Shown: in pieces, positions 21,103-35,231 of the stretch | Numbering within the stretch: position 1 is the first letter of the stretch | Layout of the letters: every line of letters begins with the position of its first letter | Origin: a virus | Length of the DNA stretch: 36,229 bases | Reading direction: 5' to 3' (one strand) | Virus record (IMG/VR): IMGVR_UViG_3300045994_000199 | Span: 1-36,229 of that record | Program-made: the position numbers and the translations under genes | Notes under the pieces: model-generated | What the model saw: the letters and a program-made list of their open reading frames with translations, nothing else | Told to the model about the DNA's origin: nothing | Database searches by the model: none

Positions 21103-21417
21103 ATGCGCTTAGGTGACTTAAATCGTAACTTGATATTCCAAGCTCCCACGAAAGATGCTAACGGAGTGGTTGGATGGCAGACCATCTTCACTGCTAAGGG
21201 CGCGTGGTGGCCATTAACATCCGTTGAGCGTATCCAAGCCCTCGCATTAGGTGGCACCATCACCGGCAAGGTTCGTATCCGTTACCGGCCTGTGAGAATA
21301 TTGGTAACGTGGCGCATATTGGTGAATGGAGTTACGGTACTAAACATAGCTGCACCCCCTATCAATTTAAGTGGTAAGAATGAGTGGATGGAAATCCAGA
21401 TTCGTGAGGTAGCATAA
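21103..21417 (+). CDS. Head-tail adaptor / stopper protein (gp16-like)
   Basis: This 104-residue protein opens with MRLGDLNRNLIFQAPTKDAN, then GVVGWQTIFTAKGAWW, a hallmark of the phage head-tail joining (SPP1 gp16-like) family, and contains VRIRYRPV and the final MEIQIREVA. The family forms a ring below the connector that closes the head. Order (connector, stopper, tail terminator) and size match the family. It overlaps the next gene by one base at 21417. Confidence 0.85.
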   Translation: MRLGDLNRNLIFQAPTKDANGVVGWQTIFTAKGAWWPLTSVERIQALALGGTITGKVRIRYRPVRILVTWRILVNGVTVLNIAAPPINLSGKNEWMEIQIREVA

Positions 21418-21830
21418 TGCAAATCCTCTTCTCAGCAATCGACGCTAAACTCCTTGATTCCAATATATATAACGACTGTGGTGGAAGAGTTTACCGAGAT
21501 ACCGCCGACACTGCCGACATGCCATACTTAGTCTACTCAATAGTTTCCGGTGTGCCTGATAACGTATTCCAGAAAACCGGCGAGTCTGTCTTAATCCAGT
21601 TCGACCTATTCTCCGCAATGACATCGGGTAGAGTGGAAATCACCACAATGTATACTGATTTAACTACCTTACTTGACGATTGTGTGCTAACCATCACCGG
21701 CAAGAATTGTGTTCAGTTTCAGCGCCAAAATCTTGTTACAATGGTTGAGGATAATTCATCGTTGCAAGATGGAAGTTCGCTACTTTTTCACTGGGTAATT
21801 GATTACGAAATCGTCTATCAAACCGCATAA
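21417..21830 (+). CDS. Tail terminator / tail completion protein (DUF3168 type)
   Basis: This 137-residue protein shows the tail-completion (DUF3168, gp17-like) pattern: IDAKLLDSNIYNDCGGRVYR, then DMPYLVYSIVSGVP, SVLIQFDLFS and a final LLFHWVIDYEIVYQ strand. These proteins cap the tail tube at the head end and join it to the connector. It directly follows the stopper. In related phages a gp10-like gene often precedes this one; here that gene lies about 6.4 kb further on. Confidence 0.78.
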   Translation: MQILFSAIDAKLLDSNIYNDCGGRVYRDTADTADMPYLVYSIVSGVPDNVFQKTGESVLIQFDLFSAMTSGRVEITTMYTDLTTLLDDCVLTITGKNCVQFQRQNLVTMVEDNSSLQDGSSLLFHWVIDYEIVYQTA

Positions 21831-21847
21831 GAAAGGAATTGCAATAA

Positions 21848-22258
21848 GTGAATAAAAATCAAACAGACTTATTTGGATCAAAAGTAACGGATGATTGGGC
21901 AACCCCTGAATGGTTGTATCGTCAGCTTGATTCTGAATTTCATTTTGATCTTGATCCCTGCCCTTTGAAATCAATGGTGAACGGACTTGACATGGAATGG
22001 CGGGGCAATGTTTTTGTCAATCCACCTTATTCACAAGTTAAAAAATGGCTTGTAAAGGCACATGAGGAATTAAAGAAAGAGGCAAAAACGATTGTCTTCT
22101 TGGTTTTTGTAAATACTGATACGGCATGGTTCCATGATTATGTTTATGGAAAGGCGGAAATTAGGTTCTTGCGAGGAAGGGTGAAATTTGTTGGTTTCTC
22201 AAAGAATGGTTCAATGAGACCATCGATGGTGTGTATCTTTAGAAGGGAAGGGACGTAA
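21848..22258 (+). CDS. dam: Phage Dam-type DNA N6-adenine methyltransferase
   Basis: This 136-residue protein starts at GTG 21848 after AAAGGAA. It belongs to the phage Dam (DNA N-6-adenine methyltransferase) family: WATPEWLYRQLDSEFHFDLD then PCP (36-39), the catalytic NPPY (58-61), and KTIVFLVFVNTDTAWF, with FLRGRVKF. It would methylate adenine, probably in GATC, protecting phage DNA from restriction. No restriction enzyme is nearby, so it is an orphan enzyme. It sits between the tail terminator and a group of small ORFs. Confidence 0.88.
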   Translation: MNKNQTDLFGSKVTDDWATPEWLYRQLDSEFHFDLDPCPLKSMVNGLDMEWRGNVFVNPPYSQVKKWLVKAHEELKKEAKTIVFLVFVNTDTAWFHDYVYGKAEIRFLRGRVKFVGFSKNGSMRPSMVCIFRREGT

Positions 22259-22259
22259 G

Positions 22260-22367
22260 ATGCTTGAAATAACTGTAAGCGAATTCATAGGCGATTTGAT
22301 TATGGTGTTTTTTGTCGGGCTGACGATAGGACAAGGAATAGCATTCCATTTTGCTGGTAAAAAATAA
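22260..22367 (+). CDS. Tiny single-span membrane peptide
   Basis: This 35-residue ORF starts at ATG 22260, 1 base after the Dam stop, after AAGGGA. The middle (about 12-30) is hydrophobic (LIMVFFVGLTIGQGIAF), and the end is basic (GKK), as in a small inner-membrane peptide. Its stop coincides with the left arm of the inverted repeat at 22366-22379. Function is unknown. Confidence 0.45.
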   Translation: MLEITVSEFIGDLIMVFFVGLTIGQGIAFHFAGKK

Positions 22368-22407
22368 ATAGGCAGGCAGGCCATAGACAGAAAGGCAGGT
22401 AGAGACA

Positions 22408-22590
22408 ATGCACCATCCAGTTCAAATAGAAAATAGTGATTCCAACTTTCTCTACTGGAAGACACAATTTGGCAAAAAAATCTATTTGAACGAAGATAGT
22501 CTCAATAGAAAAGAAGAGAGGCAGAAAAATGATAATCAAATTTTCGCATGGAGTAACAAAAGAAACAGAACGGTGGGAAGTTTTTGGTGA
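22408..22590 (+). CDS. Doubtful small ORF
   Basis: A 60-residue ORF without recognised motif, with a weak ribosome site (AGGTAGAG). Its last 62 bases overlap the better-supported ORF at 22529 in another frame. It fills an otherwise empty 160-base gap, so it is listed with low confidence. Confidence 0.25.
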   Translation: MHHPVQIENSDSNFLYWKTQFGKKIYLNEDSLNRKEERQKNDNQIFAWSNKRNRTVGSFW

Positions 22591-22819
22591 TGTAGATAGG
22601 TACAGTGTGAATGCGCGTTTTTGTTCAAAGATGGTAGATGCGGTTACGGAATTTGGTGTCGTTTCCCTAAGATCGGTGTTAGATTTCACCGAGGCAGCGA
22701 ACCAGAACCAAATATGGGAGCTTTCGTTATTCAGGGGTGATAAAAAGCCAATAGATATTATGGCTCATTCGCCAATTTTTATCTTGAACAATGAAGGACG
22801 GACGGTAGATAAGATTTAA
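22529..22819 (+). CDS. Hypothetical protein
   Basis: This 96-residue protein starts at ATG 22529 after GAGAGG. It shows strands and helices typical of a small soluble domain (MIIKFSHGVTKETERWEVFG and so on, then VVSLRSVLDFTEAANQNQIW). No family is recognised. It lies wholly inside the inverted-repeat-bounded segment, which may have been acquired as a unit. Confidence 0.5.
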   Translation: MIIKFSHGVTKETERWEVFGDVDRYSVNARFCSKMVDAVTEFGVVSLRSVLDFTEAANQNQIWELSLFRGDKKPIDIMAHSPIFILNNEGRTVDKI

Positions 22820-22861
22820 CAAGGCACTGCCTGCCTATTTTAATTTAAGAAAGGAATGTTT

Positions 22862-23044
22862 ATGAGTGCAAGGATTTACGCTGATGATTTAGAAGAGGAT
22901 TTAAGAGCGGGTGGCAAGTGGCCCCCTCCGGGCTGGAATGGGAAACACATGGTGCTATCACGCCCCTTGTGGCATTTAATTCCAAGGCTATTTGGATTTA
23001 CTAAATATTACGGCCACGAGTGGCGACGGATAGGAGAGGAATAG
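22862..23044 (+). CDS. Small basic hypothetical protein
   Basis: This 60-residue protein starts at ATG 22862, 6 bases after AAAGGA; the in-frame ATG at 22856 is too close to the ribosome site. It has an acidic start (DDLEEDL), a proline-rich centre (GGKWPPPGWNGKH) and an aromatic, basic C-terminal half. No motif identifies a function. The next gene begins one base after its stop. Confidence 0.5.
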   Translation: MSARIYADDLEEDLRAGGKWPPPGWNGKHMVLSRPLWHLIPRLFGFTKYYGHEWRRIGEE

Positions 23045-23045
23045 A

Positions 23046-23234
23046 ATGGAGAAGAAATTAAATGACATCACCCGCAAAGAATGGATAGCCTACCGGTGGA
23101 TTGAAATCCCCCCGACAATGGACGACAACGACGACGAGAGAATGTTCCGGTCGGCTGGGAAAAGGACACCTGATGAAATGATGTTGGCTATAGAAGAGTG
23201 GGATATTGCAGCGGAGGTGCTTTCTGGTGTATAG
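23046..23234 (+). CDS. Small acidic hypothetical protein
   Basis: This 62-residue protein starts at ATG 23046 after GGAGAGG. It contains a conserved-looking ITRKEWIAYRWIEI segment and an acidic loop DDNDDE, then RTPDEMMLAIEEWDIAAEVL as a helix. No family is recognised. Its end overlaps the HNH nuclease start at GTG 23227 by 8 bases, and it carries that gene's GGAGGT ribosome site. Confidence 0.5.
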   Translation: MEKKLNDITRKEWIAYRWIEIPPTMDDNDDERMFRSAGKRTPDEMMLAIEEWDIAAEVLSGV

Positions 23235-23820
23235 TGCTGCTACGATAGCGAAGCGGTTGGAATATGGTAGAAAACATTACCATGAACATAAAGCAGAGGC
23301 TGCTGTTAGGGCTAAGGCATATCGTGCAGCAACCAGAGAACAACGATTAGCTCAAGAGAAAAAGTTTCGCGATGCTAATAAAGAAAAAAGAGCAGCGTAC
23401 AGCAAGGAGTATAATCAGTCACATAAAGAAGAAATAAAGAAGACCGCAATAATCTATCGGCTAACACACAAAGAAGAAATATCAGCATGGGAAAAGGAAT
23501 ATTGGCAGACTGAACAAGGCAAATCTGTGATGAGGAATAAAAATTACAAGAGAAAATCTGCGAAGTTTGGCGTGGGATATGAACAATTTAATCCTATTGA
23601 TGTTTTTAAACGAGATGGATATAGGTGCCAAATTTGTAAGAAGAAAACGAGACCTGATTTCAAAAATGTTAATCATATGTTATATCCAAATCTTGACCAT
23701 ATAATATCATTAAGTAATGGTGGAGAACATTCTATGCGAAATACGCGGTGCTTATGCCATCAGTGCAATATAATAAAAAGCAATAATGACAGCCATGCTC
23801 AATTAAGATTATTCGGCTGA
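23227..23820 (+). CDS. HNH homing endonuclease with helical repeat arm
   Basis: This 197-residue protein starts at GTG 23227, 8 bases after GGAGGT (23213-23218); a TTG at 23206 in frame has no ribosome site. Residues 10-110 are highly charged helical repeats (KHYHEHKAEAAVRAKAYRAA, KFRDANKEKRAAYSKEYNQS, HKEEI units), as in many phage HNH nucleases, and likely bind DNA. The HNH core is Cys134-x2-Cys137, Asp157-His158, His168, then Cys177-x2-Cys180. It is AT-rich and overlaps the previous gene by 8 bases, fitting insertion. It is the second free-standing homing nuclease in the window. Confidence 0.85.
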   Translation: MYSAATIAKRLEYGRKHYHEHKAEAAVRAKAYRAATREQRLAQEKKFRDANKEKRAAYSKEYNQSHKEEIKKTAIIYRLTHKEEISAWEKEYWQTEQGKSVMRNKNYKRKSAKFGVGYEQFNPIDVFKRDGYRCQICKKKTRPDFKNVNHMLYPNLDHIISLSNGGEHSMRNTRCLCHQCNIIKSNNDSHAQLRLFG

Positions 23821-23850
23821 ACCTGAACCAAAGAAAGGAGCTATCCAATA

Positions 23851-24543
23851 ATGGAAGAAGAAGTTAAAACCAAAATCAAGATTGCCGATCTTAAACCGAA
23901 CCCGACTAAGCAGGTTATCCCCACTATTGAAGAAATCCAGCAATTTGTAATCTCCCACGGCACTGAGGATTTCAACACCTTCGGTCAGATGGAAGGTTCG
24001 TTCGTAGGTGGAAACTTTTGCCAGCAGGTTATAGACGAAATAGGTCCCTGTATCCATTACCTTCTATCCAATAATGTGCAGATAAATTCCTACCTTGAAG
24101 TAGGCGCGGCAGCTGGTGGAACCACGTTCTTATTCAATCACTATTTCCACCCCAAAACCATTATAATCGTAGACAATAACTCCCATCCTCAATGTTTCCA
24201 TCGTGGTAGAATATTACGCGAAATTGACACTATTGAAATCATAGACGATTCGCAATCCGAGAACGCGGTGCGCCGTGCCAAGAAATATGCACCTTTTGAT
24301 CTTGTCATTCTTGATGCTGTGCATACCTACATGGAGACAATGATGGATATTGTACACTTCGCGCCCATGATTGCCCCCGGTGGATACCTCTTCCTCCATG
24401 ATTCAGTGTGGAATGGCGGCGAGGTTGAGAGGGTAGTAAGGGAGATGAAGACTCACGCGGATTACAAGTTTATCAATGAGTGGATATCGCCAACCAATGT
24501 GACTAATCCTTGTGGCATAGCCCTCTTCCAACGGAGTAAGTGA
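23851..24543 (+). CDS. SAM-dependent methyltransferase (Methyltransf_24 type)
   Basis: This 230-residue protein has a class I methyltransferase core: YLEVGAAAGGTTFLF (81-95, motif I), IIIVDNNSH (motif II), DLVILDAVHTYMETMMDI (acidic loop) and GGYLFLHDSVW. It resembles domain 2 of the protein at 13694 and sugar O-methyltransferase-like families, suggesting two copies of the same chemistry. The N-terminal 30 residues are basic and may be flexible. It overlaps the DNA methyltransferase start by one base (TGATG at 24541). It probably acts on a glycan or protein, not DNA. Confidence 0.75.
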   Translation: MEEEVKTKIKIADLKPNPTKQVIPTIEEIQQFVISHGTEDFNTFGQMEGSFVGGNFCQQVIDEIGPCIHYLLSNNVQINSYLEVGAAAGGTTFLFNHYFHPKTIIIVDNNSHPQCFHRGRILREIDTIEIIDDSQSENAVRRAKKYAPFDLVILDAVHTYMETMMDIVHFAPMIAPGGYLFLHDSVWNGGEVERVVREMKTHADYKFINEWISPTNVTNPCGIALFQRSK

Positions 24544-25334
24544 TGCTGTACGAAGGTGATTGCTTAACCATAATGCCGACTTTGCCCGATAAGTCCATTG
24601 ACCTGACGGTGACATCTCCGCCCTATGACAATCTGCGAACCTATAACGGCAATTCTACCTTTGATTTTGAGGGGATAGCTAAAGAACTTTACAGGGTTAC
24701 GAAAGACGGCGGTGTGGTGGTCTGGGTAGTAGGCGATGCCACAATCAACGGGAGCGAAACGGGGACATCATTCAAACAGGCACTTTACTTCAAGGAGTTT
24801 GGTTTTAACCTTCACGATACGATGATTTTTGAAAAAGATTCTTTCCAGAAGCCTAATCATAACCGATATTGGTCGTGTTTTGAATATATGTTTGTGTTGA
24901 GTAAAGGAAAACCAAAAACGGCATATATGATAAGTGACCGGGCAAACTCTCAAGGAGGGAAAACAGTATCAAGCAAAACGGTCAGAAACGCGGACGGGAG
25001 CACATCGAAAAGGAATCCCGTGGTGATAGCGGCTTTCGGGAAGCGTAAAAATATATGGGCATATAGCACCGGATACGGAAAAGGAACGACGTGCAAGGAG
25101 GCTTATCAGCATCCGGCCATGTTCCCTGAACGACTCGCCACCGACCACATTCTTTCATGGAGCAACGCAGGCGACACGGTTCTTGACCCTTTCGCGGGTA
25201 GCGGCACAACCGGTGTGGCCTGTCTAAACACGAATAGAAAATACATCCTGATTGAAAAGGATGCCACCTATTGCGACATAATCAGAAAACGAATTGAATG
25301 TCACATGCCCTTATTACAGGCAATTAACGAGTAA
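24543..25334 (+). CDS. DNA N4-cytosine/N6-adenine methyltransferase (beta class)
   Basis: This 263-residue protein is a DNA aminomethyltransferase of the N6_N4_Mtase family. Motif IV is TSPPYDN (24-30), the SPPY form typical of N4-cytosine and some N6-adenine enzymes, and motif I is DPFAGSGTTG (215-224), so the order IV-then-I defines the beta class. Serine in SPPY favours cytosine N4 but does not prove it. No cognate restriction enzyme is present. With the Dam-like gene, the phage has two DNA methyltransferases, probably for evading host restriction. ATG 24543 (TGATG overlap) is preferred to the GTG one codon before. Confidence 0.9.
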   Translation: MLYEGDCLTIMPTLPDKSIDLTVTSPPYDNLRTYNGNSTFDFEGIAKELYRVTKDGGVVVWVVGDATINGSETGTSFKQALYFKEFGFNLHDTMIFEKDSFQKPNHNRYWSCFEYMFVLSKGKPKTAYMISDRANSQGGKTVSSKTVRNADGSTSKRNPVVIAAFGKRKNIWAYSTGYGKGTTCKEAYQHPAMFPERLATDHILSWSNAGDTVLDPFAGSGTTGVACLNTNRKYILIEKDATYCDIIRKRIECHMPLLQAINE

Positions 25335-25346
25335 GAAAGGAAACAC

Positions 25347-26693
25347 ATGCACCAAATACACCTTATCATCCCATTCAGTCGCCCCGAGAACAAGGATAAA
25401 CTCATTGAGGCTTACCGGCCAATGGGGGTAATCCTGCATCCGATTATGTTTGAGGATGAACTGGTTGATTTTAGCAATGAAGACTTTATTTATCCTGTTG
25501 CCATCCCCGGCAAGGCTTCTGATTGTAAGGTAATGATGCCGGGATGCTTCAAGCGTAATAAGTTCATTAATAATTATCGTATCATTGACGACGACTACTA
25601 TGTAACAGTTGATGATGATGATATGTACGAACCGAATGTCATGGACGAGATCCGCAAGATGGATGACGACATTGTAATTATTAGCATGAAGCGCGGCCAC
25701 CGGATACCAAAGGGGGTAAAGCCACCACGAGATTACCCCACCGATACATTATTTGCTGATCCTAAGAATGTAGAATTAGGTAGCATCTCCGCCCAACAGT
25801 CATTTGTGAAAGGTATACTATTCAAACGGCACCTCCACAATGAAAACTCTCATTGCTGGGACGGGGAGTTAGCGGTAGATTATAAAGACGCTCGCGAGAA
25901 GATAGTTTACCGCCCTGACCTCTATGCCTTATTCAATTATTACGAACCAGAACGATGGGATCACAATCATCCAAAAGTAGTATTTGGTTGCATGATTAAC
26001 AATCCCCAAAGGTTTTCAATGGTACTCCGCCAATCTCAGATCAATAGTCCTCTAATGTTTATCCAGAATCCTGAATCGGCTACCAAAGGGTTAAACATAC
26101 TATTAGATAAGGCCGAATTGGAAAGTGCCGATATCTGCGTGCTGGTACATCAGGATATGTATTTTCGATCTGGTTGGGTAGACCAGCTACGTTATCAAAT
26201 CAAAATGTTACCAGAGTCCTGGGTTGTTGCGGGAGTTATAGGTAAAGATGCAAGTGGTTTGGTCTGTGGCAAATTTCACGACATGCGAATCCCAGACTAT
26301 TTCAATACCTCCGATATCCATTCCTTTCCCCACGAAGCTTGTTGTTTTGACGAGGCAGTGATAATCGTCAATATGAAGAAGGGATTTAGGTTCGATGAAT
26401 CATTAACTGGATTTGACCTTTATGGTACACTTTGTTGCTTGCAGGCATGGGAAGCTAACCAAACATCGTGGGTAATTGATTGTTTTTGTGAACATTATTG
26501 TATGAGACCGTTTACGTGGAGTCCATCAGAACAATTTTGTGCTAATTACAAGATACTTCATGACCGATTTAGCGCAAAATGGAAATTAGATTCCACCGCA
26601 TTAGGCTTATCCCCCGATGCTGAGGAACGGTTAGAACAGATACGAGAATTTATGACTTCAGCAGCACCATTTGACGAGGAACAAGTAACATGA
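25347..26693 (+). CDS. Two-domain glycosyltransferase-like protein
   Basis: This 448-residue protein seems to join two GT-A-like domains. Domain 1 (about 1-205) starts IHLIIPFSRPENKDKLI and has Asp89-Asp92 in YYVTVDDDDMY as the metal-binding DxD. Domain 2 (about 210-440) has VVFGCMINNPQRF, then ADICVLVHQDMYFRSGW (261-277) with His268-Asp270 as the likely acidic motif, and later FDLYGTLCCLQAW. It begins 12 bases after the DNA methyltransferase and overlaps a small ORF by four bases. A role in glycan assembly on the virion or the host is likely; DNA glucosylation is less likely because no base-modification genes are present. Confidence 0.75.
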   Translation: MHQIHLIIPFSRPENKDKLIEAYRPMGVILHPIMFEDELVDFSNEDFIYPVAIPGKASDCKVMMPGCFKRNKFINNYRIIDDDYYVTVDDDDMYEPNVMDEIRKMDDDIVIISMKRGHRIPKGVKPPRDYPTDTLFADPKNVELGSISAQQSFVKGILFKRHLHNENSHCWDGELAVDYKDAREKIVYRPDLYALFNYYEPERWDHNHPKVVFGCMINNPQRFSMVLRQSQINSPLMFIQNPESATKGLNILLDKAELESADICVLVHQDMYFRSGWVDQLRYQIKMLPESWVVAGVIGKDASGLVCGKFHDMRIPDYFNTSDIHSFPHEACCFDEAVIIVNMKKGFRFDESLTGFDLYGTLCCLQAWEANQTSWVIDCFCEHYCMRPFTWSPSEQFCANYKILHDRFSAKWKLDSTALGLSPDAEERLEQIREFMTSAAPFDEEQVT

Positions 26694-26782
26694 GTGATGA
26701 CGCAAAAGAATTATTGCAAATATTTGTACGATGTGTGAAAATGTTTGTAAAATTACTTGAAGATTTTTTAGAAAAAAAGTAA
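26690..26782 (+). CDS. Tiny amphipathic peptide
   Basis: This 30-residue ORF overlaps the glycosyltransferase stop by four bases (ATGA). It is amphipathic with hydrophobic phenylalanines and a lysine-rich end (LLEDFLEKK), suggesting a membrane-associated or helical peptide. It ends 65 bases before a strong terminator. It may be real by the coupled start, but it is too short to be sure. Confidence 0.4.
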   Translation: MSDDAKELLQIFVRCVKMFVKLLEDFLEKK

Positions 26783-26846
26783 GATAGCAATCAAATACTC
26801 AGGCTATCCCTCGAAAGACGCATAGTCTGATAGTCAGCCGCGCACA

Positions 26847-26891
26847 TGCCCCGCTGAAATTGGTAATAATTCAATTTCCGGGGCATTTTTT
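26847..26891 (+). terminator. Strong intrinsic terminator
   Basis: TGCCCCG (26847-26853) pairs with CGGGGCA (26879-26885), a two-base bulge follows, then GAAATTG pairs with CAATTTC around a 9-base loop; T-rich sequence (TTTTTTATT) follows the stem. It separates the accessory block from the tail genes. Confidence 0.85.
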
Positions 26892-28264: not shown

Positions 28265-29761
28265 ATGGCACGGGTAGTTGGCCTGAAAATTAAAGAAGTC
28301 TTCCAGAACATAGCCGACCTTGCTATCATTGGTGCGAATAAGGTTATGGCCGATGTCGCCGCCGATGCTTATAGGCGATGCCCCACTAAAAAAGATGTAG
28401 CAATTGGCACTACTTATCGAGGCTATGGGACCGTAATGCGAGATGTTATGTTCACTCCCAAAACTGGTAGAGGTCGTGGGAAGCATGTCAACTTTATCGC
28501 AAAAACAGAGATGGGCCGTACTGCTGGAAGTCTACGAGATACTATTCGTAAGGTTGAGAAGAACGACCGGCCAGGGAATATTCGAGTTTATGCAGGATCG
28601 GCGACGCGATTTTACGCTTGTATTTATGGGCCAGGGACAACAATCAAGACATCCTGTGGATTCAAGGCAATAAGTTCAATAAAAGAAGGTGATCTTGTAA
28701 TTGGACAAGACGGGATGCCACACGAAGTTCTCTTGAAAAGTTCATTTCCTGCGAAGCAAAAACCGAACCTTGTTCGACTAACTGTGGAGTGGCGATCAGA
28801 TAGAAAACACACTTTAACTGTAACTGATGACCATAAAATATTAACCATAAAAGACGGTGTTTCATTTTGGGTAAAAGCTGGTGAATTACAAGAAGGCGAT
28901 TATGTATTTTGTCCTAAAAAGATTTCGCCTGATAAGGGGAAAGGGAAGAAAAGAGTTTGTGTTAATTGCCAAAAAGAGTTTACTCGGCAAGATAGCCAAG
29001 GGAAGAAATATTGCTCCGTGCAATGCAGGGATGAATATTGGGTGAAAGGAAATAATCCCCATATTGGCTCAAAAAGAACGGATTCAACAAGGCAGCTAAT
29101 GCATGAAGTAACGACAGCAAGGATGGTAGCAAGACCTGAAACACATCCCAACAGAATCATGTCTCAACGTGGGTTCCAAACGAGTTCCGAAAAGCAGGTT
29201 GAGGAATGGATTGGATTAACTGGCTTGCAATATGAACGTCAATTTAAGGTCGGCAATCATTTTGCAGACTTCGCTATTCCAGAAAAGAAAATGCTTATTG
29301 AGGCCGATGGTGCATTCTGGCATTCAAATCAGGCAATAGATATTGAGAGGGATAAAGAAATCATTAACCTTCTTCCGGGGTGGGATATCGTTCATATTCA
29401 TTTTACAGACAGGCGATTCAGTAAATCCATTAATCCGTCCCCGATTCCTGGTGTGCGTTATATGCAATGCAATAATTCAATGAATAGTTTTGTTGATATG
29501 ACCTATTTTGAGGCCAGAAAGATTGTGAAAAAAGAGATTGTTGATGCCAGCGAAAGCGACATAAGCCTATATGATCTTTCTATAAAAGATGTTCATTCTT
29601 TCATTGCAAGCGGTATTGTTGTGTCAAATTCTTTTGTTGAGTTCGGAACTTCTCATTCAAAGAAGCAACCATTCATGAGGCCAGCTTTTTTGGCAATCAA
29701 AGGTACTGCCCAGGCGCGGATCGAAGAAGAGATGCTTAAAGAACCTGAGATGAAGAGGTAG
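28265..29761 (+). CDS. HK97 gp10-like head-tail protein split by an intein
   Basis: The 498-residue precursor is a gp10-like protein (residues 1-118 and 456-498) interrupted by a 337-residue intein. The N-extein ends IRVYAGSATRFYA and the C-extein begins SFVEFGTSHSKKQPFMRPAF, which together match the VEFGT and PFMRPAF core of the HK97 gp10 family; splicing would yield a 161-residue protein, normal for the family. gp10-like proteins act in head-tail joining or tail completion. Here the gene lies between the chaperones and the tape measure, not next to the stopper gene, an unusual place. The start ATG 28265 is one codon after the chaperone stop. Confidence 0.88.
   Translation: MARVVGLKIKEVFQNIADLAIIGANKVMADVAADAYRRCPTKKDVAIGTTYRGYGTVMRDVMFTPKTGRGRGKHVNFIAKTEMGRTAGSLRDTIRKVEKNDRPGNIRVYAGSATRFYACIYGPGTTIKTSCGFKAISSIKEGDLVIGQDGMPHEVLLKSSFPAKQKPNLVRLTVEWRSDRKHTLTVTDDHKILTIKDGVSFWVKAGELQEGDYVFCPKKISPDKGKGKKRVCVNCQKEFTRQDSQGKKYCSVQCRDEYWVKGNNPHIGSKRTDSTRQLMHEVTTARMVARPETHPNRIMSQRGFQTSSEKQVEEWIGLTGLQYERQFKVGNHFADFAIPEKKMLIEADGAFWHSNQAIDIERDKEIINLLPGWDIVHIHFTDRRFSKSINPSPIPGVRYMQCNNSMNSFVDMTYFEARKIVKKEIVDASESDISLYDLSIKDVHSFIASGIVVSNSFVEFGTSHSKKQPFMRPAFLAIKGTAQARIEEEMLKEPEMKR
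28619..29629 (+). mobile_element. Intein with Vsr-like homing endonuclease
   Basis: Intein residues 1-337: Cys1 starts the N-block (CIYGPGTTIKTSCGFKAISS then IKEGDLVIG); the B-block shows TVTDDH (H72); the C-terminal part has YDLSIKDVHSFIASGIVVSN followed by Ser+1 of the extein. The usual penultimate His is Ser336 here. Between the splicing halves are a CxxC-x14-CxxxC zinc-finger-like motif (C114, C117, C132, C136) and a nuclease-like stretch (about 189-265): SSEKQVEEW, FADFAIPEKK, LIEADGAFWH, matching the EDxHD/Vsr-type PD-(D/E)XK pattern (E191, D217, E228, D230, H235). Confidence 0.88.
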
Positions 29762-29765
29762 CAAA

Positions 29766-32700
29766 ATGGCTGTAGCCTCAATTTTTACGGAACTTGACAT
29801 CGACCTCAGTAAATTCAAATCCAAGCAAGAAACCATTCTCAAGGATATTGAATTAATCGGTTCTAAGGCTGATAAAGCTCTACAGTACAGTTTTCAGAAA
29901 CTTGGTGTCACTGCTGACCAGACCTACCAAATGATGGCTAACTTAGCTATCAAGGCTTACGAGAAAATATCTGCCTCTGCCAATGCCTCTGCTGCTGAAC
30001 AATATCGTGCTCAAGCCTCAATGGTTGCCAAAATTAATGCACTTAATCAACAAATGGCTGCATCCCCCGGATTATCTATGTTGGGTATCCGTTCGACAGA
30101 ACAGCTTAACCAAGAACGGCTTGCTATCATGGAAGTCTATAAGATGGAAAGAGCTGCGGCTGCGGGCAATGCTCGTGATATTGAAGCCATTGAAGTAGCT
30201 ACAACTGCTAAACTAACCGCTTTGGATAACGAGTACATGGCGGTAAAAATAGCCAATGATGCGAAGGCGGTTGCTTCTGCCAAGAATGCTGCAAATGAAA
30301 TAATAGCCGCACAGGAAAAGATACGGGCACAAGGCTTAATGCAACTTGAAGCTTCTGCAATGCGTGCTAAAGAAACCAAAACCCTCCAAGAGGCTCAAGC
30401 CCAAGGTATAATGACCGAAATGGAATGGCAGAAGAAGATGGAAGCCACCAAATCGGAAGCATGGGCTGAAAATGCCAAGCGTACCAGAGAACAAGGTTTG
30501 ATGCAGATTCAGGCTACCAAGGATGATGTTGAACGTACCAAGAAGGCGACATCGGACAAGATTGCAGCTACCAATGAACATTATAACACCCTCGGCATGA
30601 AATCCGCCGCTGATGTCAAGCAACGCATATCCGATGTCCAGAATGCCGCCACCGCACAGCAAGCCATAGTCGGCAAAAGCTCGGATGACTGGGTTAGAAT
30701 CGAACGCGCCAAGAATGAGAAATTGAAGGAATTGAACAGGGAGATGACCGGCCAGCATGAGATGTCGATGGCATCGATGACTCGTGCGGTGCTGAGATTC
30801 TATGCGGCGTATTATGTTATATCTACTGTTGTTGGAGTAGTTGGCAGAGCGTTCATGTCTGGGGTAGAAACCATTGATAAAATGCAATTATCTGCTGTGA
30901 CTGTTGCTGCAACAATAACAAATTTGCAAGGTACTACTGGCAATATAGCAGAGAATTATAAGAATAACCTTGGCTACGCAAAAGCCCTTGTTCCTGTTTT
31001 AATGCAAATAGATGCCGCTTCGTTGATGAACCTTGAACAGGTCAACAATATGAATAATGCCCTTGCGATGCATGGCGTTATTCTTGATGGTAGCAATAAG
31101 AAACAGGTGGTAGCTGCAACCGCTCTTTCTAATGCAATTGCTATGTACACTGCTGGTCAAAGCAAAGAGCAACAATCATCGCAAGAAACTAATGCGTTAT
31201 TGGATGGTACAGTATCCACTCGGAACAAAATTGCCAAAATGGTTGACACACAAATTAGGCGGCAAGGTGATTATAAGGATGGGCTTGCTGGGTTGAATAT
31301 TGAAGCTGCAAAGCATAACGATTGGTTGGAAAGGATAAGCCCATACTTGGTTGGTATTGCGGCTGCTTCTGGTGATATTCAAAAAACATGGGAAGCTACA
31401 AGTTCTTCACTTAAAACAACATGGATGATTTTACAAACAGAAATATTTGCTGATTTCTATAAGGGGTTAGTTACCAGTGGGCAGGAATTAGTTGGATGGG
31501 CAAGGGAAAATGCACCATTGATAGGTGTGTATTTTAGAGCATCTATAAGTGCTATTGCTGATGCTATTGGAGCAGTGTGGGGTGTTCTCAAAGGATTTGG
31601 CCCACTGCTAAAAGATATTCCACCGTTGGTCAGTGCTATTGCTTACGGATGGGGCGGAGTCCTTGCTGTTTTAAAACCTATTGGCGAATTTTTAGGTAAT
31701 TCAATTTCTCTTACTTATAATCTTTTGAAAATGATTGGCAATGCTACCCTCGCAATCGGCGCATTTGCAACTGGGAATACAAGTGTTGCGAAAACGGCAT
31801 GGGAAGAGGCTAAGAAGAATTTCTCCGAAGTAGAAAAATTAAGCATAGCGAATAGAAAGATTCTTGTTGATGGGATTGCTGATGCGATAGTTGGATATGA
31901 TAAACAATATCAGGCGGCAAAGAAAGCGGCTGGATCAGGTTATGTTCCCGGAGTATCTCCTGGAAAAGGCGACGAGGCAGCACTTAAAAAAGCTGAGGAT
32001 ATCCAAAAGCAAATCACCGAAATCATTCGCAAGAACCAGTTAGAACGTGAAAAAATTGGCAAGTCTGTCTATGAGCAAGATTTATTAACTATTGAATCCG
32101 AGAAACAAGCACATATTACTGCTGGATGGTCAGTTTCTCAAGCAGAGAAAGCAGCTATACCAGAACGACAAACGGCAGTAGCTAAATTCAATGAATGGAA
32201 TAAGCAAGAAGAAAATAAAGCTACCATTGCAAATTACGATGCACAAAAGAAAAAATGGGATGAGATTGGGAAATTAGCCGTTGCTACGAACAAGAAGGAG
32301 TTCGAGGAACAGAAAAAATCATTTGAAGCTTATCAACGTATGATGGATGCGAATGAAGACTTAGCACTTTCCGACCACCAACGTGCGATGAATCGTATCA
32401 ATGCTAAGGCTAAGGCCGAACAAGCCCTCATTGACTTACAAGTATTGAGTGGTAAGATATCTCCCGCACAAGCTGAATTAGATAAGACAAAGATTGCGGG
32501 TATCACCGGCCAGCAGACCGCAGAGGAATTAGCTAAGGATGCTTCTGATGTAGCTAAACAGTACGCTAATCTTACCAAGTACGCAGATACCTATTATACC
32601 AAAAAAATGGATTTGATTGAAAAAACTCGTCAGATGGAAATTGGTGCACTGATGGACGTTGGCGCTGCTAATGCTAAGGCTGCACAAGAACAATTAAAAC

Positions 32701-35231
32701 TCATTGGAGAAGTCTGGGATCTCAAACATAAAGAACAGAATGATGTAATTGCGGGTACAGGCAAAGTTCTCGATGCCGCGATGACCATGTATGATACGGA
32801 CTCCTCTGAATACAAGAGATTGGCTGATTTAAAGAAAGGCATTCTAATCGCTGAAATGGCGATGGAAGCAGCCAAGAATGTGGCTTTACTTGCCAACATG
32901 ATAGCCCAAAATGCTGCATACGGGGCGGCAATGGCCAAGAAGGTGGCCTCCTTGGAATTGACTGCGGCAGAGGCGATTTTAACTCAAGGAGAGGGGGAAC
33001 CATACACAGCTTTTGCACGTATAGCTGCAATGATGGCTATTGTTGCGGGTGTATTGGGCGCAGTTGGTGTAGCTGGCGGATTTGGTAGTAGCAGTTCAGC
33101 AGGTTCAACAGCAAACACGGAAACATATACCGGAACCAGCACCGTTCTTGGTGCGTCGGATCAGACCGGGAGTGAGTCTATATCAAGATCCTATGAACTC
33201 CTTAAAGATACCTACGATATGGAGGACACAAAACTAACTGGAATATACAATGAGATGAAAGACCTGAACACAAATATCACAGGATTAGTAACAGGGATTG
33301 TGAAAATGGGTTTGACAACTTTTGGGGCAGCGGCTGAAACGAACTTAGAAGGTTCTGCGGCTAAATTTTTTGATGATAATTTTGTTAGTGATGCAGCCAC
33401 TCAGATATTTGGTAATACAATCGCAAAAATAGTTGATCCTGTGTTTTCCTATTTATCGGATTTATCAATGAGTGGCTTTGGTTCAATCGCTAATTGGTTT
33501 GCTGGTGGTGATTCAACAACAACATCAACTGGTTCTGGAATCTCGTTTGGTGCAGGAAAGGCTGGTTCGCAGACTTTTAGCGGATACCGAGACATGAAAA
33601 CAGAAACAGATAAAGGTTGGCTTTTTGGTGGAGGAACAGACACAACAACATGGCAAGAGGGAATAGCCTTATCTGCTGAAGTAAATAAATTATTGACTAA
33701 AGTTTTTACAGGCATGGGCGATACCCTTGTTTCTTTAGCTGGAGAATTAGGAACAAGTACAACAGATGCCTTGAATTATACTTTTGAGGCTGCTACATTA
33801 AGCCTTCAAGGAATGACAACAGACGAAATGAATACGGCTATTAGTGAATACTTCTCTAATTTGGCAGATACCGCCGTTGAGGCTCTTTTTGGGGATATAT
33901 TAAGTCAATATCAAGAACTGGATGAAGGTCTGCTTGAAACAGCCGTCAGAATTGTATCAGATAAAAATGCTATTTTGAACGCTCTAGATATGACAAATCA
34001 AGCTTTTTCGGGAACTACTGTTGAATTGATAGCCTTCAGCGAAAGTCTTATTACGCTTGCGGGCGATCTTGATACCCTTACAACTGCTGTTTCGAGTTAC
34101 TACGATAAATTTTTCTCGGATGGGGAAAAATATACTTACTTGTTAAGTAGCCTGACCGATGTTTTTGCCAGCATGGATGTGACCATGCCAGCTACACGAG
34201 AGGCATATAAAGCGCTGGTGGAAAGTCTGGATTTAACAACTGAAGCAGGACAAAGTACCTATGTTTCAATGATGCTTCTTGCGGATACAGCCGATTCTTT
34301 TTATACCATGCTCGACGACATGGTTTCCGCAATATCGGATGCAAAAGATTCTATGGAATTAGAAGGTTTGACATATGCAGAATCGCAAGCGACTACGGCA
34401 TACCTTGCTCTGAAAACTGTTTTGGCCGAAGCTAAACTGGGAAACTTTACCAATGTCAGCGACCTGGATTTATCCACCATCGCATCAAATGCAAGCTCAA
34501 CCTCTGGATTTGCCACCCGGGAAGAGTATCAAGCGAACTATTGGAAAACCTACAATTCCCTTACCCAGCTAGAAGACCTCGTTGGCGGCACTACTACAAC
34601 CGAAGAGAAATCACTTGTTGTTCAAACTTCATCATTATCGGTTTTGCAGGAGATTGCCGCGAATACTTCTACTACCACAGCTACTACTACTTCTGCTACT
34701 ACGGCAGCAACTATTGCTTCTGATACAGCAGCGGCAGCGGCGACAACCATATCAGACACAGCAGCAACAACTTCAACAGTGGCAACAAGTAAGGTATCTG
34801 AATCATGGACAGTTGCGGCTTTGACAGAACTTTATTACAAAGTTTTTTATCCTAATGGGTTTCCTCTTGGAACATTACTTCCTAATAGCGATACAATGAT
34901 AGAATCTCTAAGGGTTCAAGGGTACGCTTCTGGTGGCGATTTTTCGGGTGGATGGCGGGTAGTAGGAGAACAAGGGCCTGAACTTGAATACACGCAACCA
35001 AGTACTATAATAAGCAATTCTGGTAGCAAGGCATTTCTTGATAACAGCGATATGGTCGCGGCCATTAATGACCTAAAAGAAGAACTAAAAACTATTGGAT
35101 ATGCCGTATCCAAGAATACCCTGAAAGCCACAAAAATATTCGACCGCTGGGATCAAGACGGATTGCCACCTGATAGGGCTGGCATCGTCTCAAAGTGGGA
35201 TACCGAAGGGCTTCCTGCGACGAGGGCATAA
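29766..35231 (+). CDS. Tape measure protein
   Basis: This 1821-residue protein sets tail length; at about 0.15 nm per residue it implies a tail of roughly 270 nm (estimate). It starts MAVASIFTELDIDLSKFKSK and has long coiled coils (about 1-330 and 740-1060), hydrophobic segments at about 340-360 and 1087-1105 that could cross the host membrane at ejection, a Ser/Gly-rich part (about 1105-1200), a Thr/Ala low-complexity stretch (about 1633-1677), and the C-terminal motif ASGGDFSGGWRVVGEQGPEL at about 1720-1740 typical of tape measures. No lysozyme domain is visible. The stop overlaps the next start (TAATG at 35229). Confidence 0.92.
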   Translation: MAVASIFTELDIDLSKFKSKQETILKDIELIGSKADKALQYSFQKLGVTADQTYQMMANLAIKAYEKISASANASAAEQYRAQASMVAKINALNQQMAASPGLSMLGIRSTEQLNQERLAIMEVYKMERAAAAGNARDIEAIEVATTAKLTALDNEYMAVKIANDAKAVASAKNAANEIIAAQEKIRAQGLMQLEASAMRAKETKTLQEAQAQGIMTEMEWQKKMEATKSEAWAENAKRTREQGLMQIQATKDDVERTKKATSDKIAATNEHYNTLGMKSAADVKQRISDVQNAATAQQAIVGKSSDDWVRIERAKNEKLKELNREMTGQHEMSMASMTRAVLRFYAAYYVISTVVGVVGRAFMSGVETIDKMQLSAVTVAATITNLQGTTGNIAENYKNNLGYAKALVPVLMQIDAASLMNLEQVNNMNNALAMHGVILDGSNKKQVVAATALSNAIAMYTAGQSKEQQSSQETNALLDGTVSTRNKIAKMVDTQIRRQGDYKDGLAGLNIEAAKHNDWLERISPYLVGIAAASGDIQKTWEATSSSLKTTWMILQTEIFADFYKGLVTSGQELVGWARENAPLIGVYFRASISAIADAIGAVWGVLKGFGPLLKDIPPLVSAIAYGWGGVLAVLKPIGEFLGNSISLTYNLLKMIGNATLAIGAFATGNTSVAKTAWEEAKKNFSEVEKLSIANRKILVDGIADAIVGYDKQYQAAKKAAGSGYVPGVSPGKGDEAALKKAEDIQKQITEIIRKNQLEREKIGKSVYEQDLLTIESEKQAHITAGWSVSQAEKAAIPERQTAVAKFNEWNKQEENKATIANYDAQKKKWDEIGKLAVATNKKEFEEQKKSFEAYQRMMDANEDLALSDHQRAMNRINAKAKAEQALIDLQVLSGKISPAQAELDKTKIAGITGQQTAEELAKDASDVAKQYANLTKYADTYYTKKMDLIEKTRQMEIGALMDVGAANAKAAQEQLKLIGEVWDLKHKEQNDVIAGTGKVLDAAMTMYDTDSSEYKRLADLKKGILIAEMAMEAAKNVALLANMIAQNAAYGAAMAKKVASLELTAAEAILTQGEGEPYTAFARIAAMMAIVAGVLGAVGVAGGFGSSSSAGSTANTETYTGTSTVLGASDQTGSESISRSYELLKDTYDMEDTKLTGIYNEMKDLNTNITGLVTGIVKMGLTTFGAAAETNLEGSAAKFFDDNFVSDAATQIFGNTIAKIVDPVFSYLSDLSMSGFGSIANWFAGGDSTTTSTGSGISFGAGKAGSQTFSGYRDMKTETDKGWLFGGGTDTTTWQEGIALSAEVNKLLTKVFTGMGDTLVSLAGELGTSTTDALNYTFEAATLSLQGMTTDEMNTAISEYFSNLADTAVEALFGDILSQYQELDEGLLETAVRIVSDKNAILNALDMTNQAFSGTTVELIAFSESLITLAGDLDTLTTAVSSYYDKFFSDGEKYTYLLSSLTDVFASMDVTMPATREAYKALVESLDLTTEAGQSTYVSMMLLADTADSFYTMLDDMVSAISDAKDSMELEGLTYAESQATTAYLALKTVLAEAKLGNFTNVSDLDLSTIASNASSTSGFATREEYQANYWKTYNSLTQLEDLVGGTTTTEEKSLVVQTSSLSVLQEIAANTSTTTATTTSATTAATIASDTAAAAATTISDTAATTSTVATSKVSESWTVAALTELYYKVFYPNGFPLGTLLPNSDTMIESLRVQGYASGGDFSGGWRVVGEQGPELEYTQPSTIISNSGSKAFLDNSDMVAAINDLKEELKTIGYAVSKNTLKATKIFDRWDQDGLPPDRAGIVSKWDTEGLPATRA

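Follow-up and report, generated by a model that had tools for sequence, protein, structure and literature searches.

A putative homing intein with a Vsr/EDxHD-type nuclease in the Neck1/tail-completion gene of uncultured phages

In the tail operon of an uncultured phage, one gene encodes a small virion joining protein whose conserved core is split by a long insert. What is this insert, and what would it do in a virion-assembly gene? The window, which is the whole stretch of DNA that was analysed (36,229 bases), contains a plus-strand reading frame at 28265–29761 that is open over 498 codons with no internal stop (498 aa). The insert occupies residues 119–455 of this frame (28619–29629, plus strand, 337 aa). 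Its first codon is TGT (Cys), its last two codons are TCA-AAT (Ser-Asn), and the +1 codon is TCT (Ser). The flanking N-extein (28265–28618, plus strand) corresponds to residues 1–118 of a gp10-like/Neck1 protein and ends in RFYA. The C-extein (29630–29761, plus strand, including the stop codon) starts with SFVEFGT, continues through PFMRPAF, and carries matches to TIGR01725 and phrog_5. An earlier note had proposed an intein of 337 residues at 28619–29629 in an HK97 gp10-like protein, and its coordinates and length are exact to the base.

The genes of the window follow an HK97-type order of HNH, terminase large subunit, portal, protease, major capsid, adaptor, head closure, and tail terminator. 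These are followed by a methyltransferase/HNH block, the major tail protein, chaperone-like genes, the gp10-like gene, the tape measure gene (29766–35231, plus strand; phrog_24709 and phrog_7740), and distal tail genes. The usual, though not defining, position of gp10 is between head closure and tail terminator. In the window these two genes adjoin (21103–21417 and 21417–21830). The cultured phages Evi and Dubu have a gp10/Neck1-like gene between them. Inside the tail operon, the region 21830–26860 contains methyltransferase-type genes at 21848 (a 136-aa DNA methyltransferase, possibly truncated), 23851, and 24540. Free-standing HNH endonuclease genes are present at 105–407 and 23206–23820, one of them near the terminase gene.

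The identity of the interrupted protein emerges when the insert is removed. The precursor scores 26.5 bits against the HK97-gp10 model TIGR01725 (cut-off 30.8), with a match in the C-extein region only. The joined exteins score 43.2 bits and the match spans the junction, which bears out the proposed gp10-like host. The N-extein by itself matches zero NCBIfam models. The joined exteins also match phrog_5 ‘tail completion or Neck1’ (2e-12), and judging from these matches the protein is best called Neck1/tail-completion, a refinement of ‘gp10-like’. In tblastn searches, the joined 161 aa align through the junction in annotated Ne1 neck proteins with individually weak matches (E 0.01–0.1). Their alignment to PDB chain 9mu2_P (E 0.016) likewise spans the junction. 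In the AlphaFold model of the precursor the exteins are not resolved and have low confidence. The window exteins share the ...YAxxVEFGT...PFMRPA core with HK97 gp10/Neck1 proteins (TIGR01725, phrog_5, PDB 9mu2_P). The window gene differs from them in being interrupted by an intein and in lying directly before the tape measure gene.

The insert (28619–29629, plus strand; Cys1 to Ser336-Asn337, +1 Ser) is identified as an intein by domain models, by predicted structure, and by its same-site relatives. The Pfam Intein_splicing model matches the precursor with an E-value of 1.1e-8 and 35.4 bits, just under the curated cut-off of 35.8, and matches the intein alone over that cut-off, with 37.0 bits. 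The NCBIfam intein_Cterm model scores above its cut-off. The AlphaFold model of the intein, for which the alignment input included nine relatives, has a mean pLDDT of 80 and about 90 across the Hint parts. Foldseek aligns this model with structures of hedgehog, gp41-1, and PI-SceI and with those of other inteins (E about 1e-5). The Hint fold that the earlier note proposed to look for is thus predicted. The N-terminal Hint part (intein residues 1–101, 28619–28921, plus strand) contains block A Cys1 and block B Thr69-x-x-His72, which are invariant in the alignments and kept in a natural mini-intein, L097. The C-terminal Hint part (29435–29629, plus strand), matched by intein_Cterm and supported by the alignments, contains block F Asp319 and His326 and block G Ser336-Asn337.

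These features are those of a class 1 intein. The Hint fold is predicted for the window intein. Cys1, T69xxH72, N337, and +1 Ser recur throughout the 14 alleles (L032 has Cys at +1), and the insertion is in frame in a conserved gene that has intein-free alleles in L058, other contigs, and cultured phages. The usual, not obligatory, penultimate His of class 1 is replaced by Ser in 14 of 14 alleles, which is no bar to membership. Class 3 is excluded, since Cys1 is present and block F has Asp, with no WCT-motif Cys at block F position 4. The family profile search gives gp41-1 inteins as the best match, and these cyanophage-type inteins (PDB 6qaz, 6riz) are also among the best fold matches to the window Hint domain. 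The C-terminus of gp41-1 is His-Asn, whereas that of the window intein is Ser-Asn. The gp41-1 intein is a split intein that is not known to carry a nuclease. Phage class 1 inteins with homing endonucleases, such as the mycobacteriophage TerL, portal, and RDF inteins (PMC5050341), share with the window intein Cys1, the TxxH block B, the Asp/His block F, the terminal Asn, +1 Ser/Cys, an internal endonuclease, a sporadic same-site distribution, and a variable penultimate residue. The window family differs from them in its Neck1/tail-completion extein, which is outside that survey's protein groups, in its EDxHD/Vsr-type nuclease, and in a lineage-fixed penultimate Ser.

Relatives of the intein are present at the same site in other phages. 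An IMG/VR pattern search for the codons of N-[S/T/C]-[F/Y]-VE-[F/Y]-GT recovered L020, in which a homologous intein interrupts a gp10-like protein at the identical site. Profile searches added L021, L026, L027, L029, L030, L032, L035, L089, L090, L093, L095, and L097. With near-duplicates set aside (L023–L025 are near-identical to L026, L090 equals L091, and L020 is on the same contig as L022), 14 distinct alleles including the window are complete at both splice junctions. The 13 further alleles comprise 12 with the nuclease and one mini-intein. Two more members of the same-site family, L036 and L038, are incomplete. The viral scans used short peptide patterns, so the number of alleles is undercounted. 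In all 14, the host protein is gp10-like, and the intein interrupts it immediately N-terminal to the (V/L/I)EFGT-type core or the EHGH/EEGG equivalent of that core. The features recur in independent relatives, which excludes chance.

In 90 of 91 pairwise comparisons the inteins are more similar to each other than the exteins are, with median identities of 45 and 23%, a gap that could partly reflect faster extein evolution besides transfer. The GC content of the intein is below that of both exteins in every allele (14/14); that of the window intein is low, yet no outlier within its own contig. Resolution is poor in the tree built from the 14 inteins. Used as a single-protein query against viral contigs, the precursor found no relative. 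For the phage of the window itself, the searches revealed no close intein-free relative, and the downstream tail gene alignment is too diverged to serve as a search query. Five intein or precursor queries found no full-length same-site allele in 50,697 phage records, and one query found none in plasmids. Pattern matches L017–L019 and L098 are chance ORFs and were rejected. A match in Microcystis phage Mvi-JY20 at first resembled a same-site allele and was likewise discarded. It is a mini-intein in DNA polymerase A (L002, 2012–5377; family A), annotated merely as a hypothetical protein. In L039, L040, and L041, from uncultured phages, a helicase-like protein contains an intein that is longer and of a different kind.

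Empty and nuclease-less alleles of the site are also present. The joined exteins of the relative L026 retrieve 13 loci (L055–L067, some of them near copies) with uninterrupted homologs that are 63–80% identical. The L058 product is intein-free and 80% identical to that of the carrier L026. The junctions read HPL|AHLFEFGT in L058 and HPL|SHLFEFGT in L062, against HPL|C...SN|SHLFEFGT in L026. L026 and L058 are syntenic around the gene, with DNA identity of 71–93%. Cultured-phage gp10/Neck1 homologs are also intein-free. Homologs without the 337-residue segment, for which the earlier note had proposed a search, are thus found in L058, in the other loci of L055–L067, and in cultured phages; the empty-site comparison concerns the relative L026 and its neighbourhood. 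At the same site, L097 (2136–3197) contains a natural 169-aa mini-intein in which the zinc ribbon-nuclease module, residues 102–272 of the window intein, is absent as a block. Together, the empty, full, and nuclease-less alleles represent stages of a homing cycle.

The module that L097 lacks is the putative homing endonuclease (intein residues about 102–272, 28922–29434, plus strand). It starts with a zinc ribbon, Cys114-x2-Cys117...Cys132-x3-Cys136 (28958–29026, plus strand; C232, C235, C250, and C254 of the reading frame), which corresponds to the four-cysteine zinc-finger-like motif noted earlier and is conserved in all nuclease-bearing relatives. L026 (10076–11194) has a second copy of the zinc ribbon, a duplication also present in its close copies L023–L025. 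The nuclease core (29189–29407, plus strand) contains E191, D217, E228, D230, H235, D241, R244, and D245. In Pfam, the precursor matches DUF559 (E 1.5e-7), with Vsr (0.0013) as weaker support. The family profile matches PDB 3r3p ‘Mobile intron protein’ (E 1.3e-4), which we take to be I-Bth0305I, the enzyme that typifies the EDxHD family. Foldseek of the same intein model finds the Vsr endonucleases 1cw0 and 1vsr at E about 1e-3. The proposal of a Vsr/EDxHD-type nuclease, not LAGLIDADG, agrees with all of these matches. The model of the Vsr mismatch-repair endonuclease itself, TIGR00632, scores 21.2 bits, far from its cut-off of 97.85, and this assignment was rejected. The four zinc-ribbon cysteines and the eight nuclease residues are invariant in a 10-row alignment, and the nuclease residues are retained in all 13 nuclease-bearing rows. 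Named catalytic roles for the core residues are probable assignments made from sequence. Like EDxHD homing endonucleases such as I-Bth0305I (PMC3943268), the window nuclease has the core, the conserved acidic/His positions, and a phage setting; it differs in being located inside a contiguous intein and in being joined to a zinc ribbon.

Is the nuclease still a cutting enzyme? An intein whose nuclease no longer cuts, and which is kept by splicing alone, would be compatible with the existence of the nuclease-less L097 and with a window allele that has no close relative for a selection test of its own, cleavage being predicted from sequence. The window copy, however, retains every conserved nuclease and zinc residue. 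Among pairs of relatives with finite dS (L029/L030, dS 1.1; L093/L095, dS 0.6; L089/L095, dS 1.7), dN/dS is 0.06–0.08 for the nuclease and 0.03–0.10 for the Hint domain. By these ratios, the nuclease is under purifying selection in the testable relatives, and loss of cutting in the window intein is unlikely.

Free-standing relatives of the zinc ribbon-nuclease module, or of the nuclease only, are present in Acinetobacter, Vibrio, Thermus, Rhizobium, and Campylobacter phages and are often annotated as homing or HNH endonucleases. Scans of bacterial and archaeal genomes yielded only L042, a free-standing zinc ribbon-nuclease protein in a bacterial MAG, and L043, a nuclease fragment. Dassa and colleagues reportedly described this nuclease family in 2009 as stand-alone genes located between the halves of split inteins and within introns. 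The simplest explanation would be that a free-standing zinc ribbon-nuclease gene moved into a Hint domain.

The penultimate residue of the intein is Ser336, as the earlier note had seen, where inteins usually have His (PMC4031507). That note took the Ser as a possible sign of slow or conditional splicing that would couple tail assembly to splicing. An intein of this kind, in which Ser slows or triggers splicing and so times tail completion, would fit the Ser itself and the variation of phage inteins at the penultimate position, which affects precursor build-up (PMC5050341). Against this, the Ser is present in 14 of 14 alleles, including the one without a nuclease, and the block F His is present every time. 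A search for canonical penultimate-His inteins at the gp10 site yielded L099 (4717–5946, minus strand), a same-site gp10 intein of 298 aa whose nuclease is of the HNH type (PF01844, 19.0 bits, slightly short of the cut-off) and is accompanied by a zinc ribbon. L099 has the reciprocal pair, a penultimate His and a block F Asn. The swap is one case only and not a pattern, and its direction is the one expected if both positions share a helper role in Asn cyclization. L099 also combines a different nuclease with a related Hint domain at an identical landing site.

Known inteins argue in the same direction. An upstream block F His can substitute for the penultimate His, and the mycobacteriophage RDF intein splices completely with its native penultimate Gly, while mutation to His slows splicing (PMC5050341). 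The Npu DnaE split intein (PDB 2keq, 4qfq) shares the YD...DHxF...SN arrangement with the window intein. Its C-terminus in the PDB sequences is ...DHNFALKNGFIASN, with a penultimate Ser and a block F His, and its splicing half-life is 1 min or less (PMC4031507). Npu DnaE is split, is without a nuclease, and has a DNA polymerase extein, unlike the window intein. Because this intein has Ser with the block F His and is very fast, Ser is no sign of slow splicing. The expectation of slow or conditional splicing is not supported by these observations or by the alleles above, and such an intein is distinctly improbable; by analogy, prompt splicing of the window intein is more likely. As for coupling, tail assembly would depend on splicing as a trivial consequence of the interruption, while regulation by splicing is unsupported here.

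A Hint relative that cleaves without ligation, such as a bacterial intein-like (BIL) domain or a PT-HINT domain, is very improbable. PT-HINT and Hint_2 Pfam matches are present too, and hedgehog and BIL structures are among the Foldseek matches. The terminal Asn and the +1 Ser/Cys are nevertheless found in 14 of 14 alleles, a homing-type nuclease is embedded, and empty alleles exist at the identical position. The complete C-extein carries on the conserved gp10 core, and the VEFGT core would be broken if the exteins were left unligated. The gene lies in a phage tail operon, which is not the toxin or secreted context of PT-HINT domains. Several phages carry the segment at one position, as might also be seen if it were a normal structural domain belonging to a longer protein of the gp10 type, but that reading is refuted for practical purposes by the intein-free homologs close to a carrier (L058, 80% identical) and by a Hint-nuclease composition with no known structural role in necks.

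The segment is very probably a mobile class 1 intein in a Neck1/tail-completion precursor, predicted to excise itself to leave a 161-aa protein and to home by means of its embedded Vsr/EDxHD nuclease. The intein would be translated within the precursor and would fold as a Hint domain. Excision would proceed by attack of Cys1, transfer to the +1 Ser, and cyclization of Asn337, and ligation of the exteins would give the 161-aa working neck protein. Since the penultimate residue is Ser, block F His326 presumably fills the usual role of the penultimate His. The insert splits the conserved core, so the unspliced precursor is unlikely to function as a neck protein. The zinc ribbon and nuclease of the freed intein may cut intein-free gp10 genes in co-infecting phages, with the conserved codons around YA|(S)x(V/L)EFGT as the probable target. 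Repair of the break would then copy the intein into the empty gp10 allele, as the empty, full, and nuclease-less alleles suggest. The presence of the element in very different phages would be explained if it targets the codons that are most conserved in an assembly gene.

Most reports of phage inteins concern proteins that handle DNA. In a mycobacteriophage survey, all intein-containing proteins were classed as nucleic-acid binding (PMC5050341), and we agree with the earlier note that a small virion joining protein is an unusual extein. Two further candidates for inteins in virion genes are a ‘hedgehog/hint domain protein’ of Vibrio phage 1.265.O (L079, 1724–3817), which has a weak Mu F match, and an intein/Hint-type sequence in a MuF-like minor capsid protein of Gordonia phage Nordenberg (L080, 1631–4738). 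Both are large proteins whose genes adjoin portal genes. Precedents exist for inteins in general, for unusual penultimate residues in phage inteins, and for EDxHD homing enzymes. No earlier report of an intein in gp10/Neck1, or of the same-site family, was found in the full-text literature, which included few subscription papers, and an earlier listing is possible. What appears new is an EDxHD-armed intein family at a virion-assembly site. The same element is present at the exact site in at least 12 other diverse uncultured phages, and the site therefore looks like an unreported landing site.

Natural stages of the homing cycle are represented in the family by alleles that are empty, full, or nuclease-less and by a rival occupant with an HNH nuclease; L097 provides a ready-made mini-intein. 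It is also a natural experiment in intein chemistry, in which Ser with a block F His (14 alleles) can be set against His with a block F Asn (one allele). As a tentative possibility, the family may be a long-lived, Neck1-dedicated intein lineage in which the helper role in Asn cyclization has moved to the block F His. In unrelated phages, rival inteins armed with EDxHD or HNH nucleases would then contend for the VEFGT codons, and the nuclease would also serve to attack the assembly genes of competing phages. The recurrent neck-protein site means that morphogenesis genes, too, are colonized by homing inteins, at codons that are conserved across very different phages.
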